DNA of 64,000 bases, from positions 62,001-126,000 of the forward strand of contig JAFLZH010000002.1 in the NCBI GenBank assembly GCA_029785615.1, in the 5' to 3' direction. The notes under the pieces are model-generated. The model did no database searches, was not told where the DNA came from, and saw only the letters and a list, made by a program, of their open reading frames with translations. The DNA comes from Nitrososphaerota archaeon (lineage in GTDB: Archaea > Thermoproteota > Nitrososphaeria > Nitrososphaerales > Gagatemarchaeaceae). A program made the position numbers and the translations under genes. Of this stretch, positions 2,350 through 17,241 are shown piece by piece. Positions within the stretch are counted from its first letter, which is position 1. The number at the start of each line of letters is the position of its first letter.

Positions 2350-2622
2350 ATGGAGAAAGCTGATGTCGTGGTCGTAAGCAGCAAGGGCCAGGTCGTCATT
2401 CCCCAGGACATAAGACAAAAGCTTCGAATCGGAGCAAAGAGTAAGCTCTTGGTATATCAGTACGAGGATGCGCTCATTATGAAGAAGCTCGAAGTCGAGG
2501 GAGTCGAGAAGTCGCTGGAGGCGATTTATAGGCGGGTCGATGCCAGGAAGGCTAAGTTCGGGAAGCTCGGAGAGGCAGAGATAGAAGAGCTCGTGCAGAA
2601 ATACAGACACGTGAAGAGTTAG
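2350..2622 (+). CDS. AbrB/MazE-type antitoxin (SpoVT-AbrB domain)
   Basis: A 90-residue protein whose first 45 residues are a swapped-hairpin AbrB domain (VVVSSKGQVVIPQDIRQKLRI), the usual DNA-binding fold of VapB/MazE antitoxins. The charged C-terminal half would wrap the cognate toxin. It lies 8 bases before a PIN-domain gene and almost certainly forms an operon with it. As in other type II systems it should neutralise the toxin and repress its own promoter; that role is family knowledge. The ATG at 2350 follows a TATA-like box near 2310. Confidence 0.85.
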   Translation: MEKADVVVVSSKGQVVIPQDIRQKLRIGAKSKLLVYQYEDALIMKKLEVEGVEKSLEAIYRRVDARKAKFGKLGEAEIEELVQKYRHVKS

Positions 2623-2630
2623 CTTCTACG

Positions 2631-3071
2631 ATGAGGGCAGTCCTCGACACGAACGTCCTCATATCGGCGCTCATAAGAGGCGGAAAGCCTCGCAAGTTGA
2701 TGAACGCCCTTCTCGGCGCCAGACACACTCTGATCCTTTCAGAGCGCATAGTTGCCGAGTTCTCGCTGGTGAGCTCGGACGATAAGATCAAGAGGTATGT
2801 GGACGACGACGATGTTGCATCATTCCTGGGTGCGGTTCTGTCGAGGGCGACCTTCACAGTGCCCGAGGGAACAATTCAAGTCCTGGGTGACGCCGATGGC
2901 GATGTCTTAGCTGCGGCGAGGGCCGGAGACGCTGATACCCTCGTCACTGGTGACAAGCACTTGCTGGAGCTCGGCAAGTTCGGTCGCACCCAGGTGGTCA
3001 CAGTCAAGGGGGCCCTCTCTTTACTGGGACGTCAGAAGAGGGTCCGCGGTCAAAGGGTCAAATCGAACTAG
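2631..3071 (+). CDS. PIN-domain toxin, putative ribonuclease
   Basis: A 146-residue PIN-fold protein of the COG1569-like toxin family. The acidic residues expected to bind metal are visible: the Asp in LDTNVLIS at the N-terminus, a mid-protein Glu (IVAEFS), and Asp residues in GDADGD and TGDKHLL near the C-terminus. PIN toxins cut RNA when released from their antitoxin. The gene starts 8 bases after the antitoxin stop. The tail after the PIN core is basic and unstructured-looking, and the protein ends close to another tRNA-like fragment at 3091. Confidence 0.85.
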   Translation: MRAVLDTNVLISALIRGGKPRKLMNALLGARHTLILSERIVAEFSLVSSDDKIKRYVDDDDVASFLGAVLSRATFTVPEGTIQVLGDADGDVLAAARAGDADTLVTGDKHLLELGKFGRTQVVTVKGALSLLGRQKRVRGQRVKSN

Positions 3072-4345: not shown

Positions 4346-4347
4346 GT

Positions 4348-4363
4348 TTTCAATTCTGAGAAT
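4348..4363 (+). promoter_or_regulatory. Palindromic operator shared with the sulfur cassette
   Basis: TTTTCA-ATTC-TGAGAA is an inverted repeat (5 of 6 pairs match). On the minus strand it contains TTCTCAGAATTGA, identical over 13 bases to the palindrome at 14805-14824 upstream of the DsrE/TusA/SQR genes. It lies about 10 bases before the TATA-like CTTATATCATAT at 4375-4386, a spacing similar to that at the sulfur promoter. Confidence 0.5.
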
Positions 4364-4370
4364 CGACCCG

Positions 4371-5093
4371 ATGTCTTATATCATATTGAAAGACCGGTTT
4401 TGGTACTTGAGCACTCGGACTACCCTAATCGGAGGCCTTACCGTTGCGGTGCTTGCGGTAGCCCTCGTCATCTCCGGCTTTGGCGCGGCGCTTGCAGTCG
4501 GCGGAGTCGGGTCAAAGGTCGTGTCCACCACGACGGTGACTCCGACCACCAACTCCACCGCTGCTTCCCCCTATGTGGTGACCTTGGTCATCACGACGAA
4601 CAGCGTGTTCAACTCCACCGTCAAAGACCAACCCGCCTTCTTCGTTCTCGGCCCAAACGGCCTGGAGTCCACGGCGAAGATCTCGCTCCCTGCGAATCGC
4701 CTGATCAAGCTGGTGATCGTCTGCTATGACGACGGCAACGCGTCCCTCGTGCTCCCCAACGACAACGTCGTGTCCGGGACCACAGGCAACAGTATCTACG
4801 TGACCTCCAACGACAACGTCAACGCCAGCCAGGGCCCGTCCGGAATAGTGCTGAAGGGCGGAGCGAACCTCACTTCGGTCCCGCTCTCTGAAATCGCCCA
4901 CACCTTCACCGTGCCAGCGCTCAACCTCAACATCCCTGTGCCGCTCAGTTCGACGGTGGTCGCCTACTTCAAGGTGGGCCAGGCCGGGTCCTACTTCTGG
5001 TTCTGCGAGACCCGCTGCGGCTTCGGCCCCGACGGCACGCTGGGGGCGATGTCATCCTCCGGTTGGATGACCGGCTCGCTGGTGGCGAGCTGA
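4371..5093 (+). CDS. Membrane-anchored cupredoxin, CuA-like
   Basis: A 240-residue protein with one N-terminal membrane anchor (about residues 18-45), a Thr/Ser-rich linker and a cupredoxin-like beta domain facing outside. Candidate copper ligands are His177, Cys212, Cys216 and Met227. The Cys-x3-Cys (FCETRCG) copies the CuA loop of oxidase subunit II, but the His that normally follows is absent (Pro/Asp instead). First gene of the Rieske/cytochrome b operon, so it may carry electrons from that complex, replacing cytochrome c. The ATG at 4371 overlaps a TATA-like box (4375-4386); a leaderless TTG start at 4407, giving 228 residues, is a serious alternative. Confidence 0.7.
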   Translation: MSYIILKDRFWYLSTRTTLIGGLTVAVLAVALVISGFGAALAVGGVGSKVVSTTTVTPTTNSTAASPYVVTLVITTNSVFNSTVKDQPAFFVLGPNGLESTAKISLPANRLIKLVIVCYDDGNASLVLPNDNVVSGTTGNSIYVTSNDNVNASQGPSGIVLKGGANLTSVPLSEIAHTFTVPALNLNIPVPLSSTVVAYFKVGQAGSYFWFCETRCGFGPDGTLGAMSSSGWMTGSLVAS

Positions 5094-5135: not shown

Positions 5136-5780
5136 GTGAGCGCTGAACAGCCTGGGGACTCAACCGGAGGAGAGGCTGACAAGTCGAGGCGGGAGTTCCT
5201 GAAGATAGCTGCCGCCATCTCCGGCGCCCTCGCCGTGGGGGGGATAGCTTCGGTGATGAAGTCCGTTGTGATTCCTGCGGTCCCCACTACGTCTGGACCG
5301 CAGACAAGCTTCCCTCGTGTCAAGATCTCGAGCGTGTCGGAGCTCTCCACTGGGGTCGTTGTGATATTCAACTATCCGCTCGGCAACGAGCCGAACATCC
5401 TAGTGAAGCTCGGCCAGAAGGCCGAGGGCGGCGTAGGGCCCGACGGCGACATCGTTGCGTTCAGCCAGATCTGCCAACACCTTGGGTGCATATGGGGGTT
5501 CGTCGCCGCGGGCAAGTCCCCCACTGTGAACCCATCCTTCGTCGCCCCTGCCCCCGTAGGATACTGCCCATGCCACGGGAGCGTCTACGACCTGCTCGAG
5601 GCTGGCAAGGTGATCGGAGGGCCTGCTCCGAGGCCCGCGCCACAGGTCCAGCTACAGGCCGACTCGTCCGGAGACATCTATGCGGTGGGCATGGGGCCGC
5701 CCACGATATTCGGCCATGACACAGGGTCCACCGATGTGGCGGACGACCTCCAGGGCGGAACCCTGGTCAGCTCGACATAG
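5136..5780 (+). CDS. Rieske iron-sulfur protein of a bc-type complex
   Basis: A 214-residue protein. A twin-arginine signal (SRREFLK, about residues 17-23) is followed by one hydrophobic helix, so it is probably Tat-exported and held by an uncleaved anchor. The two [2Fe-2S] ligand motifs are intact: CQHLGC (C-x-H-x2-C) and CPCHGS. In quinol-oxidising complexes this subunit takes the first electron of quinol and passes it to a soluble carrier, here plausibly the neighbouring cupredoxin. The GTG at 5136 lies 42 bases after the cupredoxin stop, and cytochrome b follows at once. Confidence 0.95.
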   Translation: MSAEQPGDSTGGEADKSRREFLKIAAAISGALAVGGIASVMKSVVIPAVPTTSGPQTSFPRVKISSVSELSTGVVVIFNYPLGNEPNILVKLGQKAEGGVGPDGDIVAFSQICQHLGCIWGFVAAGKSPTVNPSFVAPAPVGYCPCHGSVYDLLEAGKVIGGPAPRPAPQVQLQADSSGDIYAVGMGPPTIFGHDTGSTDVADDLQGGTLVSST

Positions 5781-5793
5781 AGGTGTGGATCAG

Positions 5794-7269
5794 GTGGCAG
5801 AAAAGTCCGGTCTAATTCAGCGGATGGCTGGCTGGTTCGACTCGAGGTTCGGCCTGAGCTACCCCCTCCTCCGGCCGGTCCCGCGCTACGCACTGAGCCC
5901 GTTCTACTGGCTGGGCGCCCTGGCGGTGGTAGCCTTCGTCATCCAGGGTGTGACAGGGGCAATCATGATGCTCTACTATGTCCCCAGCCCGACCCAGGCG
6001 TACTCGTCCACCCAGTACGTCTTCCAGAGCGTCTACAACGGCAGGTTCCTTGAGACCATCCACCTCTACACGGCCTACGCCATGATCATGCTCGCGTTCA
6101 TGCACATGATGAGGGGGTACTTCGTGTCTGTCCACAAGAAGCCCAGGGAAGCCATGTGGATCATAGGGATGCTGATGGGCTTCGTGACCCTGGGGTTCGG
6201 ATTCACAGGATACCTGCTCCCCTGGACGGTCGTCTCCAAGTCAGCCACCGACGTCGGGATAGGGATGGTCACCGCCCTCCCCCAGCCTATCTCATCTCTC
6301 CTGACATTCCTGATAGTCGGCAACGGAGGGAACTCGGCGGAGCTCCTGAGGTTCTTCGACCTGCACGTCATGCTCCTCCCAGCGGCGCTGTTGATACTCC
6401 TGGTGGCGAAGATGTACATGCTCGAAGCCCACGGAGTGGCCGACCCCACGAGCGGGTCCCCCGCCGAGCCCAAGCCGAAGCTCTCCCCCATCTTCCCGGA
6501 CGTCACCATGTACCTCTTCGAGCTGTCACTGCTCTTCGGGGCCGGGATGCTGCTGATATCCGCCCTGTTCCCGCTCAACCTCCCGCCCCAGTATACCCCC
6601 GCGGCCGCTTCGCAGTTCATCCCCCAGCCCGACTGGTACTTCCTCTGGGTCTACCAGGTCCTCAAGATCAAGATATTCGAGGGCTCCACTGGCCTTGCCA
6701 TGGCGCTCACCGTGGTGTCAGCGATCTTTGTCCTCCTGATCATACTCCCGTTCATCGACCGGGGCAAGAACAGGGAGATCTCCAAGAGGCCGGTCTACAC
6801 CACCCTGGGAGTCATATTCGTGACGGAGGTAGTGGTCCTCTCTTACTGGGGCCTGGTGACGCCGGGAATGATCATCCCCGTAGAACAGGCCGCGCTGGTG
6901 GTAGGCGGTACAGCCCTGCTGATGGCGGTGGGCTCGGCCTTGGTCTACAGGCTGATGTATTCCAGGGCCAAGGGGAGGCTTGCGCTGGCGCCAGCGAAGA
7001 GCATACCTTCCTCGGAGCTGAGGAACGGGCTCGCGTTCACTGGGCTGGTCGCCCTGGGCGCTTTCTCGGTCGGGACGCTGGTGAACGGCTCCGCAGGGCT
7101 CCTGATGGGCGGCCTTTCTGTCGCCGGCCTGGAAGTGGTGAGCGTCTCCGCCGTGCTCCTCGGCCTCGACCTGCTAGGGAGCGTCTTCCTCATCTACAGG
7201 CTTGACCTCAGGACTGGGAACATCAAGCGGAGGGTCAGGGTCCTCGAAGCGGGATGGAGGGGCAATTGA
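5794..7269 (+). CDS. Cytochrome b, fused b6/subunit IV type with extra C-terminal helices
   Basis: 491 residues with at least eight membrane helices plus several at the C-terminus. Helix 2 carries the His pair H90/H104 (x13 spacing). Helix 4 has H191, but the partner expected 15 residues on is Lys206 (AAG at 6409-6411). The quinol-site motif is PDWY (279-282), a variant of PEWY. Cytochrome b oxidises quinol and moves electrons across the membrane through two hemes. The GTG at 5794 was chosen because GAGGTG (5780-5785) is an ideal Shine-Dalgarno 8 bases upstream; GTG 5785 is also possible. The last 16 bases overlap the next gene. Confidence 0.9.
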   Translation: MAEKSGLIQRMAGWFDSRFGLSYPLLRPVPRYALSPFYWLGALAVVAFVIQGVTGAIMMLYYVPSPTQAYSSTQYVFQSVYNGRFLETIHLYTAYAMIMLAFMHMMRGYFVSVHKKPREAMWIIGMLMGFVTLGFGFTGYLLPWTVVSKSATDVGIGMVTALPQPISSLLTFLIVGNGGNSAELLRFFDLHVMLLPAALLILLVAKMYMLEAHGVADPTSGSPAEPKPKLSPIFPDVTMYLFELSLLFGAGMLLISALFPLNLPPQYTPAAASQFIPQPDWYFLWVYQVLKIKIFEGSTGLAMALTVVSAIFVLLIILPFIDRGKNREISKRPVYTTLGVIFVTEVVVLSYWGLVTPGMIIPVEQAALVVGGTALLMAVGSALVYRLMYSRAKGRLALAPAKSIPSSELRNGLAFTGLVALGAFSVGTLVNGSAGLLMGGLSVAGLEVVSVSAVLLGLDLLGSVFLIYRLDLRTGNIKRRVRVLEAGWRGN

Positions 7270-7538
7270 GGATCGCAGCGACCTTGCTGGCTATCCAGGT
7301 GGTCTTCCTCGTCGCCCTGCAGGGGACCTCCATCGTGGTCATCTGGCTGCTCAACCCTCTCACGCAGTCCGCGACCGACACCTTCGCGCTCTACCTCAGC
7401 GTCGACCTGCTCGCCTTCGTCATGATGTCTTACCTGTACAGATCTAGGCGCTCCGGTGGGGAGCCTAGCTCCGCCTGGCTCGCCGTCGGCTACCTCGTCC
7501 TGGTCGTGCTGCTGGTGTCCAACCTAGCGCTCTCCTAG
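7254..7538 (+). CDS. Small membrane protein of the cytochrome b operon
   Basis: A 94-residue protein with three hydrophobic segments separated by a basic loop (YRSRRSGG). No known motif. Its ATG lies inside the end of the cytochrome b gene (16-base overlap), so it is translationally coupled and is probably a small accessory subunit of the complex. It ends four bases into the convergent ABC ATPase gene. Confidence 0.7.
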   Translation: MEGQLRIAATLLAIQVVFLVALQGTSIVVIWLLNPLTQSATDTFALYLSVDLLAFVMMSYLYRSRRSGGEPSSAWLAVGYLVLVVLLVSNLALS

Positions 7539-14804: not shown

Positions 14805-14824
14805 GTTTCTCAGAATTGAGAAAC
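14805..14824 (+). promoter_or_regulatory. Palindromic operator of the sulfur cassette
   Basis: GTTTCTCA-GAAT-TGAGAAAC is a perfect inverted repeat with 8-base arms. It lies 8 bases upstream of the TATA-like GATTTATTA (14833-14841) of the DsrE gene. An ArsR-family repressor is encoded at the end of the same operon and is the obvious candidate to bind. The core recurs at 4348-4363. Confidence 0.65.
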
Positions 14825-14874
14825 GGGTTTCCGATTTATTAGCCATCTGTGGCTGTGAACATTCGTGGATTCGA

Positions 14875-15375
14875 ATGTCCCAAGTAACATCGCTGAGGAC
14901 TGAAGAGGAGGAGGAACAGACAGAGAGGATGCTCATCATCCTCTCCAAGGGGTCGATGGACATGGCGTATCCGGCGCTGATGATAGCCACGACCGCGGCG
15001 ACGATGGGGAAGGAAGTCCACATGTTCTTCACGTTCTGGGGCCTGCAGGCCGTGAGCAAGAAGAGCGTCGGCTCGCTCAAGGTGTCCCCGGTCGGAAACC
15101 CCGGGATGCCGATGCCGAACATACTAGGCATGATCCCCGGCATGACCGCCATGGCCACCAGGATGATGGGCGGGAAGATGAAGAAGGCGAAGGTGCCGAG
15201 CATCCCGGACATGCTCAAGATGGCGAAGGACCTCGGGGTGAAGCTGCACGCGTGCTCGACCACCATGGAGGTGATGGGGGTCTCGAGGGAGGCGCTCGTC
15301 GACGAGATAGACGACGTGGTCGGCGCAGCCACCATGGTGTCGCTGGGGGAGGGTGGGCAGACCATCTTCATCTAG
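14875..15375 (+). CDS. DsrE/DsrF-like sulfur-carrier family protein
   Basis: 166 residues. Residues 17-60 form the first beta-alpha units of the DsrE fold (ERMLIILSKG), a hydrophobic Met/Gly-rich middle follows, and the conserved Cys127 (LHACSTTMEVMG) corresponds to the persulfide-carrying cysteine of DsrE proteins. It probably receives or hands on sulfane sulfur together with the TusA protein encoded next; that role is from family knowledge. The ATG at 14875 follows a TATA-like box (14833-14841). Upstream codons open in the same frame have a different composition and cross the promoter, so they were excluded. First gene of the cassette. Confidence 0.85.
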   Translation: MSQVTSLRTEEEEEQTERMLIILSKGSMDMAYPALMIATTAATMGKEVHMFFTFWGLQAVSKKSVGSLKVSPVGNPGMPMPNILGMIPGMTAMATRMMGGKMKKAKVPSIPDMLKMAKDLGVKLHACSTTMEVMGVSREALVDEIDDVVGAATMVSLGEGGQTIFI

Positions 15376-15384
15376 GTGATCAAA

Positions 15385-15630
15385 ATGTCGACAACAGAGC
15401 AACGCAAAGTAATCGATTCGAGGGGGAGCTTCTGCCCAGGGCCGATCACTGACCTCTTCAAGGCATACAGGAGCGCTCAGCTGGGAGATGTCATCGAGCT
15501 CCTGGCTACCGACCCGGCAGCAAAGGCTGACGTCACCGCCTGGACGCAGAAGAGCGGCAACGAGCTCGTGGGGATAGTAGACGAACAGGGATACGCCCGC
15601 ATCACTGTGAGGGTGACGAAGAAGAGATGA
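15385..15630 (+). CDS. TusA/SirA-family sulfur carrier
   Basis: 81 residues with the diagnostic N-terminal DSRGSFCPGP (Cys17), the persulfide-bearing cysteine of TusA proteins, and the small beta-alpha-beta fold after it. It should relay sulfane sulfur between the DsrE-like protein and the flavoprotein. ATG 15385 is favoured because GGTGAT stands five bases upstream; GTG 15376, directly after the previous stop, is possible. The stop overlaps the next start (ATGA). Confidence 0.9.
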   Translation: MSTTEQRKVIDSRGSFCPGPITDLFKAYRSAQLGDVIELLATDPAAKADVTAWTQKSGNELVGIVDEQGYARITVRVTKKR

Positions 15631-16898
15631 CGGATGAAATGAAACGAGTCGTCATAGTCGGGTCGGGCGACGGAGGGACGTTCACCGCCAACCTGCTTGC
15701 GTCCAAGCTGCGCAAGGAGATCAAGGGCGGACTCGTCTCCGTGCAGCTCGTCGGAGAGCATCTGCTTCACCCCTTTCAACCCGGTAACCTGGACATCGCC
15801 TTCAAAGGGGCGGTCCCGGACAAGTACGTGAGGGCTGAGACTGACCTCATCCGGAAAGGCGTCGAGTTCATCAAAGACCCTGCTGTCAAAATCGACTTCA
15901 GTGCGAGGTCGGTGGCTACCAAGAGCGGCAGAACCCTCCCGTATGACTACCTGGTCATCGCGACAGGGGCCGTGGCCGACCCGTCGAAGATCCAAGGCCT
16001 AGCAGAGGGCGCGCTGAACTTCCACACCGGAGGGGCCGACTCCCGGCGCGTCTGGGAGGCCCTGCAGTCGTTCGAGGGCGGGACCATCGTGGTCGCCATC
16101 GCAGGCACCCCCCACAAGTGCCCCCCGTCGCCCAACGAGGCGGCGTTCATGCTGGATGAGTTCTTCCAGAAGAGGGGGACGAGGGGCAAGGTGAAGATCA
16201 GATTCCTCACCCCATATCCGCGCCCATACCCGGCAGAGAAGGTCTCCCACGTTGTGGAGCCGATGTTCCAGAAGAAGGGGATAGACGTCGTCACCTTCTT
16301 CAACGTCGATTCGGTGGACCCAGCGAAGCACAAGATCTACTCTCTGGAAGGCGAGGCATTCGACTATGACCTGCTCATAGCGGTCCCGCCGCACCACGGC
16401 GCGGATGTCATCGTCAACTCAGGCATTGGGGACCAGGACGGGTACGTGCCCACAGACAAGGGGACCATGAGGGTGGTCGGCCAGGAGGGGGCCTACTGCA
16501 TCGGGGACGCGACCACCATTCCTGTCTCCAAGTCAGGGGTCGTGGCGCATCTCCAGTCCGTCGTGGTGGCGCACAACATCATCGCCGAGATGAACCGGGC
16601 CAAGGGGCTCCTGGAGTATAACGGCAGGATCAACTGCCCCATGGAAGTCGGCAATCACAAGGGCATCTTCGTGTCAGCCACCTACACGTCTCCGCCGGTG
16701 GATCAGTCTCCTTCGACCGTCAAGTATTACATGAAGAGGTCGTTTGCCATGATCTACTGGCGCGCCCTGGGTGGAGGCCTTGAGAGGGTGTTCGACGTCT
16801 TCTTCGGGCAGACGAGGTTCCCAGCGACCGAAAAGGAGGAGCCCGAGAAGACAGCTGTCGCACCTGTGGCCTCCCAGGGCGGAAAGCGCGAAGCGTGA
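15627..16898 (+). CDS. Sulfide:quinone oxidoreductase-like flavoprotein
   Basis: 423 residues, two-dinucleotide-binding FAD fold. GSGDGG at residues 12-17 is the FAD P-loop, and YCIGDATTIP (290-299) the second FAD motif. Cys165 (PHKCPPSPNEAAF) and Cys337 (INCPMEVG) match the two redox cysteines of sulfide:quinone oxidoreductases that form the polysulfide bridge. Residues near 365-385 are amphipathic (YYMKRSFAMIYW), fitting membrane attachment. It would oxidise sulfide or a carrier persulfide and reduce quinone. It overlaps tusA by four bases. The family also contains other flavoproteins, so the substrate is inferred from the cysteines and neighbours. Confidence 0.8.
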   Translation: MTDEMKRVVIVGSGDGGTFTANLLASKLRKEIKGGLVSVQLVGEHLLHPFQPGNLDIAFKGAVPDKYVRAETDLIRKGVEFIKDPAVKIDFSARSVATKSGRTLPYDYLVIATGAVADPSKIQGLAEGALNFHTGGADSRRVWEALQSFEGGTIVVAIAGTPHKCPPSPNEAAFMLDEFFQKRGTRGKVKIRFLTPYPRPYPAEKVSHVVEPMFQKKGIDVVTFFNVDSVDPAKHKIYSLEGEAFDYDLLIAVPPHHGADVIVNSGIGDQDGYVPTDKGTMRVVGQEGAYCIGDATTIPVSKSGVVAHLQSVVVAHNIIAEMNRAKGLLEYNGRINCPMEVGNHKGIFVSATYTSPPVDQSPSTVKYYMKRSFAMIYWRALGGGLERVFDVFFGQTRFPATEKEEPEKTAVAPVASQGGKREA

Positions 16899-16899
16899 C

Positions 16900-17241
16900 A
16901 TGAACAGCACCGAGGCAGAAGAGGAGTTCAACAAGCTGCAGGCAGAGTTCTGCAAGGGGATGGCTCACCCAAAGCGGATACGCATCCTCAGGGCTTTGAA
17001 GGGCGACGAAAGGACCGTAGGCGAGCTGGCAGAGCTCACTGGGCTGCCGCAGTCAAATGTCTCACAGCACCTCGCCGTCTTGAGACAGATCGGGCTCCTG
17101 TCGGCGCGCCGGAGCGGCACCAACGTCTACTATGCCATCAGTGACCGCAGGATAGTGGAGGCGTGCGAGTTGGTCAGGGGATGCATCAGCGAGAGGCTGA
17201 GAAGGTCGCAGCGGGTGATGCTGGCAATGGAGCCGTTGTAG
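16900..17241 (+). CDS. ArsR-family winged-helix regulator with three cysteines
   Basis: 113 residues. Winged helix: helix 1 (FCKGMAHPKRIRILRAL), recognition helix (LPQSNVSQHLAVLRQIGLL), wing (ARRSGTNVYYAIS). Cys18 lies in the first helix and Cys89/Cys95 in the last helix. ArsR proteins of the BigR/SqrR type sense persulfide through paired cysteines in these helices, so this protein may do the same; that is inference. The ATG lies one base after the flavoprotein stop, so it is in the operon it probably controls through the palindrome at 14805-14824. A metal sensor is the alternative. Confidence 0.85.
   Translation: MNSTEAEEEFNKLQAEFCKGMAHPKRIRILRALKGDERTVGELAELTGLPQSNVSQHLAVLRQIGLLSARRSGTNVYYAISDRRIVEACELVRGCISERLRRSQRVMLAMEPL

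Follow-up and report, generated by a model that had tools for sequence, protein, structure and literature searches.

The window analysed here, a stretch of 64,000 nucleotides of archaeal DNA, contains two operons that raise a question of common control. One begins with a cupredoxin-like gene and continues with genes for a Rieske iron-sulfur protein and cytochrome b; the other is a sulfur cassette that ends with the gene of an ArsR-family regulator. Similar palindromes precede both. The original prediction held that these palindromes are one operator, and that the ArsR protein encoded at 16900 probably acts on both. We asked whether the operator is indeed shared, how far it extends beyond the window, and which protein is likely to read it.

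Two copies of one operator

The palindrome of the sulfur cassette, GTTTCTCA-GAAT-TGAGAAAC, is present on the plus strand exactly where it had been reported, at 14805-14824, with a 16-nucleotide core at 14807-14822. Its counterpart before the cytochrome b operon is also real, but occupies 4347-4362 and not 4348-4363 (Table 1). Each is followed by a TATA-like box, as had been claimed, although the gap is 13 nt at both promoters, and not 7-10 nt. We assign a promoter to the proposed operator A regulon if a palindrome TTYYCA-N4-TGRRAA is followed, at 12-15 nt, by a TATA-like box and then by a gene; both window sites and a third one, at L008:10909, have all three attributes.

Table 1. Operator sites, TATA-like boxes and genes of the two operons in the window
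Feature	Position	Strand	Evidence or remark
Operator A copy, cupredoxin-Rieske-cytochrome b operon	4347..4362	+	TTTTCA-ATTC-TGAGAA, then TCG
TATA-like box TTATAT	4376..4381	+	13 nt past operator (gap 4363-4375)
Cupredoxin-like membrane-anchored protein	4407..5093	+	ORF; no Pfam or NCBIfam match
Rieske iron-sulfur protein	5136..5780	+	PF00355, 1.1e-7
Cytochrome b (SoxC-like)	5680..7269	+	PF13631, PF00033, PF00032; NF041076 below cut-off
Small membrane protein, last gene of the operon (inferred)	7254..7538	+	ORF; no Pfam match
Operator A copy, sulfur cassette	14805..14824	+	10/12 orthologous DsrE2 promoters at >=69.9% identity
TATA-like box TTATTA	14836..14841	+	13 nt past operator core (gap 14823-14835)
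Second palindrome ACATTCG-TGGATT-CGAATGT, spans DsrE2 start codon	14859..14878	+	ATTC-N8-GAAT at 14861-14876
DsrE2-type protein	14875..15375	+	PF13686, 5.5e-41
TusA sulfur carrier	15376..15630	+	PF01206, 6e-18
Sulfide:quinone reductase-like flavoprotein	15627..16898	+	PF07992; type III SQR model below cut-off
ArsR-family regulator, last gene of the sulfur operon	16900..17241	+	PF01022; NF033788 87.7 bits, cut-off 55

Some gene boundaries in Table 1 call for comment. We take the first protein of the cytochrome b operon to be cupredoxin-like from its C-terminal motif; its gene appears to start at TTG 4407, and would be about leaderless. The true start of cytochrome b is probably downstream of 5680, because the open reading frame overlaps the Rieske gene, and the small membrane protein gene is assigned to the operon because of the gene overlap at its start. 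Elsewhere in the window, at 2350-3071, there is a pair of small AbrB-like and PIN-domain-like genes, named by eye, which is probably a toxin-antitoxin system.

The window by itself is unconvincing, because a search that allows up to two mismatches returns 5 matches there against 3.1 expected, and 18 of 100 shuffles reach that count; it is the genome and its relatives that convince. The genome bin of the window (G000; 908,269 bases in 21 contigs, 65.7% complete) contains three exact copies of TTYTCA-N4-TGARAA (TTYTCANNNNTGARAA), all within 23 kb on contig C15, and no copy of the reversed control. Under a first-order model fitted to the window and L008, 0.06 copies are expected, and the probability of three or more is about 4e-5. 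After the third copy, L008:10909-10924, a TATA-like TTAAAT begins at the same gap of 13 nt, and 36 nt separate the copy from the ATG of a second cupredoxin-like gene, the product of which has 41% identity to the cupredoxin-like protein of the window and no Pfam match. About 300 nt from it, at C15:10602, a variant, TTTCCAAGGTTGAGAA, precedes a divergent VKOR-type gene; the interval L008:10554-10925, 8 kb before the window, holds two operator A-type sites, with the VKOR-type and cupredoxin-like genes oppositely oriented. G000 has two further sites of the TTYYCA type with the TCG flank, one before a gene for an HTH_10 protein (see below) and one at C14:81332.

The site is also kept in relatives. 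Among 30 cupredoxin loci tested (drawn from 37 matches, with 7 weak matches left out), 24 have operator A in the promoter, including all 16 loci with at least 64.9% identity. No site was found at the cupredoxin loci of G003, G010 and G007 or at the second copies in G005 and G021, and the locus of G006 has no upstream sequence. DsrE2 promoters carry operator A at 11 of 17 loci, and at 10 of the 12 with at least 69.9% identity; of the two exceptions in the latter set, the site of G035 is weak (1 of 200 shuffles reaches its score) and G025 has none, while the site counted for G002 lacks the TATA spacing. Sites called at both kinds of promoter beat all 200 mononucleotide shuffles, with a matrix that had been built partly from the very promoters tested. 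The independent count is lower than these fractions, because some of the rows nearly repeat one another: the sequences of G000 and G029 agree at 99.98% over 14 kb, and within each of the pairs G027/G028, G020/G032 and G026/G031 both the identity and the site are the same. The two palindromes of the window are almost certainly copies of one shared operator, and the part of the original prediction that linked the two operons through a common site holds, within a much larger set of promoters.

Distribution in the family and in the phylum

The family Gagatemarchaeaceae consists of uncultured soil archaea and corresponds to Thaumarchaeota group I.1c (PMC10640624). The operator A pattern was found in 113 copies in 37 of 45 genomes of the family, against 3 copies of the reversed pattern, a count that includes sites within genes (e.g., L077, L106:3811, L107 and L071-L073); matches inside coding sequence look like noise. 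A flanked, asymmetric form, TTYYCANNNNTGRRAATCG, occurs in 32 of the 45 genomes, and its control in none. The motif is rare in G000 (3 copies) and retained upstream of both operons in relatives. In a sample of 300 genomes of the phylum, the strict TTCTCA form was seen in 72, and the regulon looks confined to the family, because these copies are mostly single and the reversed control matches some genomes as well. Two genomes of other families, G205 and G235, have 6 and 5 copies, respectively, of TTCTCA-N4-TGAGAA and no control match.

We found no description of such a regulon of Gagatemarchaeaceae in the literature searched, and a text search returned no paper for the motif halves together with archaea. 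PMC10640624, a paper on this family in particular, has in the main-text passages searched no mention of a regulon, promoter, transcription factor, hydrogenase or sulfide.

Architecture of the promoters

The consensus of operator A is CGATTCTCA-N4-TGAGAATCG, with variants of the TTYYCA type; the site is a dyad of 16-22 bp with a free N4 centre. The 42 sites (of 78) that were picked for a recognisable TATA box, and from which the consensus and matrix were derived, give CGATTCTCA-N4-TGAGAATCGT with the TATA box about 13 nt after the core. When the 78 sites are left unoriented, 73 starts of TATA-like words lie within 60 nt of them, 54 at a distance of 12 or 13 nt; a single box can yield two starts in this count. 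Counted per site, 49 of 78 have a TATA-like word 11-16 nt away on one side or both, compared to 2 of 78 and 1 of 78 in two control windows, and the other 29 have none at this distance.

An almost fixed distance to the TATA box is also what one might expect if the motif belonged to the core promoter and were recognised by a special TFB or TBP. Such a reading is highly improbable, given a dyad of this length with a free centre, which occurs at few promoters (three exact copies in G000) and mostly before genes of a single functional class. A dimeric regulator that binds next to the basal machinery appears to be a better description. The operator centre is about 24 nt upstream of the TATA box, and archaeal TATA boxes stand at a usual distance from the transcription start, which would place the centre about 50 nt upstream of that start. 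Placement of the operator there, 13 nt before the TATA box, is the ground for reading the predicted regulator as an activator, and we hold activation to be somewhat more probable than repression. Bat, for one, acts from an element just upstream of the TATA box in the bop promoter.

Targets of operator A

Pfam-supported targets include the Rieske-cytochrome b operon, DsrE2, the small subunit of [NiFe]-hydrogenase, a NicO nickel transporter, a CtaA-like protein, multicopper oxidase, FAD flavoproteins of the fumarate reductase type, and ferredoxin. Others were named by eye, i.e., TatA, the gamma subunit of pyruvate:ferredoxin oxidoreductase, citrate synthase, HSP20, universal stress and CBS proteins, and TusA of relatives. 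Genes for arginine deiminase and an amino acid (carbamate) kinase share clusters with targets. The common theme of these genes is energy supply, respiration and related stresses. To judge from the promoters, a single regulator probably switches respiration and the oxidation of sulfur in concert.

Bacterial oxygen-control regulons, such as those of Fnr/Anr and DosR, contain a mixed set of genes that resembles this list. The likeness extends to the uptake hydrogenase, the fumarate-reductase-like flavoprotein, universal stress protein and HSP20, as well as to the arginine deiminase pathway, which here is clustered with targets; however, the operator A system has a different regulator fold and a different operator.

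A second palindrome in the sulfur cassette, a proposed site of its own regulator

One of the two operons includes the gene of the ArsR protein, a clear member of its family, and both points speak for it as the shared reader. Its distribution argues otherwise. Orthologues with at least 60% identity are found in 7 of 45 genomes (G000, G029, G030, G035, G036, G016 and G034), plus a partial one in G028, against 37 of 45 for the operator. Furthermore, operator A is kept before DsrE2 in G026, G031, G039 and G005, where no ArsR orthologue at that threshold was found; some of these genomes are incomplete, and G039 has a homologue at 43% identity. The association of the ArsR gene with sites is not significant, with a Fisher p of 0.08 over 45 genomes.

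The same regulator has a likelier site of its own. A second palindrome lies across the start codon of DsrE2, a repressor-like place, and contains ATTC-N8-GAAT. This is the only match to that pattern in the window, and hence there is none at the cytochrome b promoter; with 0.28 matches expected, and 24 of 100 shuffles giving one or more, it is not rare by itself. A passage in PMC9774250 gives ATTC-N8-GAAT as the deduced recognition site of SqrR; the site letters were not found in PMC10451225. Like elements occur in relatives that have the ArsR gene and, of those without it, in G025: the word GAAYATTCGTG is seen at DsrE2 promoters of G000/G029, G016, G035 and G025 (and in two places away from DsrE2, L076:6749 and L259:9208), G034 has ATATTCG-N6-CGAATAT, and G036 a one-base variant. 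The second palindrome is absent at DsrE2 of G026, G031, G039, G002 and G005. Its fit to the presence of ArsR is good though imperfect, since G025, a genome 70% complete, has the element and no ArsR match of note; G030 has the ArsR gene and no DsrE2 match. In G028, an ArsR-like stretch of low identity with a stop codon is found 2 kb past DsrE2 (G028:C20:357874-358110), and the site at the start codon is changed too.

On these grounds 14859-14878 is the likelier, though putative, operator of the ArsR protein. Spread and the likely separate site lead us to reject this protein as the common reader, and the original idea that it controls both operons through operator A is extremely improbable.

Like the sulfide-responsive SqrR/BigR/YgaV repressors, the window ArsR shares an operon with sulfur enzymes and has ATTC-N8-GAAT across the start, a likeness that covers this protein and the second palindrome and does not extend to operator A. 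Unlike BigR, it scores 48.1 bits against a cut-off of 155 (NF040642), and for this reason we suggest that it may work like SqrR and do not call it one. Its invariant cysteines are C18 and C89. We take Cys41 as the SqrR cysteine for comparison; by residue offset, its equivalent is expected near residue 32, where the window ArsR has no cysteine.

An HTH_10 regulator within the proposed regulon

The protein encoded at L101 has an HTH_10 domain (PF04967, 58.8 bits against a cut-off of 23.1). Operator A, with up to two mismatches, precedes all 22 clear orthologues of this gene (19 distinct upstream sequences; 19 have the exact TTYYCA form), and none of the eight more distant homologues L135-L142. 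Might this Bat-like protein read operator A? The gene is absent from all 13 genomes that lack strict sites, a circular argument, since a site can come from the promoter of the gene itself. Four site-rich genomes of another genus (G005, G008, G009 and G010) have no close orthologue, and the gene tracks another palindrome instead: CCTAA-N4-TTAGG has 91 copies (14 for its reversed control) across the 22 genomes that carry the HTH_10 gene, compared to 14 copies (20 for the control) across the 23 that do not. These two facts are the basis for rejecting the HTH_10 protein, and it is improbable as the reader.

Most HTH_10 promoters have, by eye, CCTAA-N4-TTAGG-like repeats both before operator A and near the start. 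The motif is seen near the transcription start of the HTH_10 and pyruvate:ferredoxin oxidoreductase genes (L113-L134; L076, L096 and L111). We read CCTAA-N4-TTAGG as the putative site of the HTH_10 protein itself, which would therefore act one step below operator A. The system resembles Bat and HTH_10 of haloarchaea in having an element just before the TATA box and an HTH_10 gene inside the regulon; it differs in that the HTH_10 gene here tracks CCTAA-N4-TTAGG. The sequence of operator A is also different from the bop element of Bat.

A small winged-helix protein as candidate reader

Four candidate regulators were compared. The one that we favour is a winged-helix protein of 120 residues (wHTH), the gene of which lies near many sites. 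In the main genus, it belongs to a cluster with genes for a universal stress protein, a CBS protein, a membrane protein of 190 residues and a DUF7521 protein of 91 residues; our text search returned no paper for DUF7521. Operator A is found between the divergent arms of this cluster and, in several genomes, also between the wHTH and DUF7521 genes. In Gagatemarchaeum-type genomes the wHTH gene is close to hydrogenase, arginine deiminase or flavoprotein genes, and in G011 it directly follows the HTH_10 gene.

Homology searches gave 52 wHTH loci. The first 31 (L233-L263) contain 36 operator copies, with none in either of two reversed controls; at least one site is present in 24 of these loci and none in 7. 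The other 21, mostly more distant, contain 2 copies, both in records titled Nitrosotalea, a genus that NCBI places in a family other than Gagatemarchaeaceae. At the level of genomes, wHTH is found in 27 of the 32 with strict sites and in 4 of the 13 without, 9 genomes having neither (Fisher p 0.0009, kinship ignored). When genomes below 85% completeness are set aside, a weak link is left (18 of 19 vs 3 of 5, p 0.10, kinship again ignored). G040, 90% complete, has sites and no wHTH; G017, G019, G043 and G006 have wHTH and no strict site. The gene was not found in the 65.7% complete bin of the window itself, and was found in the near-identical G029.

More distant homologues, at about 30% identity, extend the association. 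In 11 of 16 such loci, an A-like palindrome with a TATA box is found upstream of the wHTH operon, a result that beats all 100 shuffles, with the matrix derived from the 42 sites picked for a TATA box and in a scanned region that was set after sites there had been seen; the palindrome was not found upstream of the other 5. The titles of these 16 records give Nitrosotalea for 5, Nitrosopumilales for 1 and Thaumarchaeota only for 10, and the arrangement is present in 4 of the 5 titled Nitrosotalea. In 15 of the 16, a gene for a membrane protein of 89-90 residues (116 as called in one case) precedes wHTH. Two membrane proteins, one from a distant locus and one from the family, were run against DUF7521, and both score above the cut-off.

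The wHTH model (pLDDT 85) has a winged-helix fold, nearest to Phr and other ArsR proteins; the comparison with Phr from Pyrococcus furiosus (2p4w) gives Z 12.3 and rmsd 2.7 over 96 aligned residues, with the first three structures tied. The fold alone cannot pick the class of regulator, because ArsR, MarR, PadR and other winged-helix chains lie within a few Z units. Among curated families, HTH_20 comes at 21.3 bits, below its cut-off of 27, and there is no NCBIfam match. Phr is autoregulated, and its sites overlap the start. Although Phr is the nearest solved fold, wHTH has 15% identity to it, consists of a single short domain, and has its candidate site upstream of the TATA box.

A divergent ribbon-helix-helix-like gene faces wHTH in the Gagatemarchaeum-type genus (L048:1364, L054:1194 and L337:3813), and G010 has 17 matches to it. 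As a reader this neighbour was rejected: its distribution is patchy, since of the site-rich genomes G002 gave no match and G034 a weak one, and its association with the sites is not significant (Fisher p 0.09 over 45 genomes).

It is conceivable, too, that another regulator of the family, for instance of the Crp/Fnr, Lrp or response-regulator type, reads operator A, and that the wHTH-DUF7521 cluster is merely one of the targets. The resemblance of the targets to bacterial oxygen-control regulons would suit a protein of that kind. On the other hand, a palindrome-TATA arrangement of this type is retained at the wHTH operon even where the homologues are distant, including 4 of the 5 loci titled Nitrosotalea; since the phylum sample is not generally rich in the strict site, distant wHTH operons with a site fit the expectation for autoregulation. 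We regard such another reader as unlikely. The wHTH protein paired with DUF7521 remains our candidate for the reader of operator A, and we hold this assignment to be somewhat better than even.

A model of the regulon and its biological meaning

The explanation that we prefer as a whole, with a probability of roughly 0.6, is an operator A regulon read by wHTH-DUF7521, with the ArsR protein acting locally on ATTC-N8-GAAT. Operator A would mark a promoter class of an energy-metabolism regulon common to Gagatemarchaeaceae. The predicted dimer would sit about 50 nt upstream of the transcription start, with 13 nt between it and the TATA box, and help to recruit the basal machinery, i.e., serve as an activator. 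This dimer would be the small ArsR-like wHTH protein encoded together with the DUF7521 membrane protein, its own cluster being under operator A. The sulfur cassette would have a second, local control, in which its own ArsR protein sits on ATTC-N8-GAAT over the start codon as a repressor, probably relieved by sulfur compounds. In this model, the sites with their spacing and conservation, the downstream genes and the tie between sites and wHTH cluster are observations; the binding protein, its mode of action and its signal are predictions. Our best guess for the signal of the operator A dimer, judging from the targets, is the supply of oxygen or the redox state.

A more far-reaching scenario is tentative, and we consider it possible rather than probable. 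In it, wHTH and DUF7521 would form a membrane-coupled one-protein switch that mainly regulates its own operon in ammonia-oxidising relatives such as Nitrosotalea and has expanded into a global respiratory regulator in Gagatemarchaeaceae. It would read the energy or redox state of the membrane, stand above the HTH_10 protein with its CCTAA-N4-TTAGG sites, and couple the oxidation of sulfide and of hydrogen with the cytochrome b complex.

If true, this would amount to a predicted global energy regulon, complete with operator, spacing, list of targets and candidate regulator, in archaea known in this analysis only from metagenomes, and would offer a route to asking what the archaea of acid soils respire, and when.
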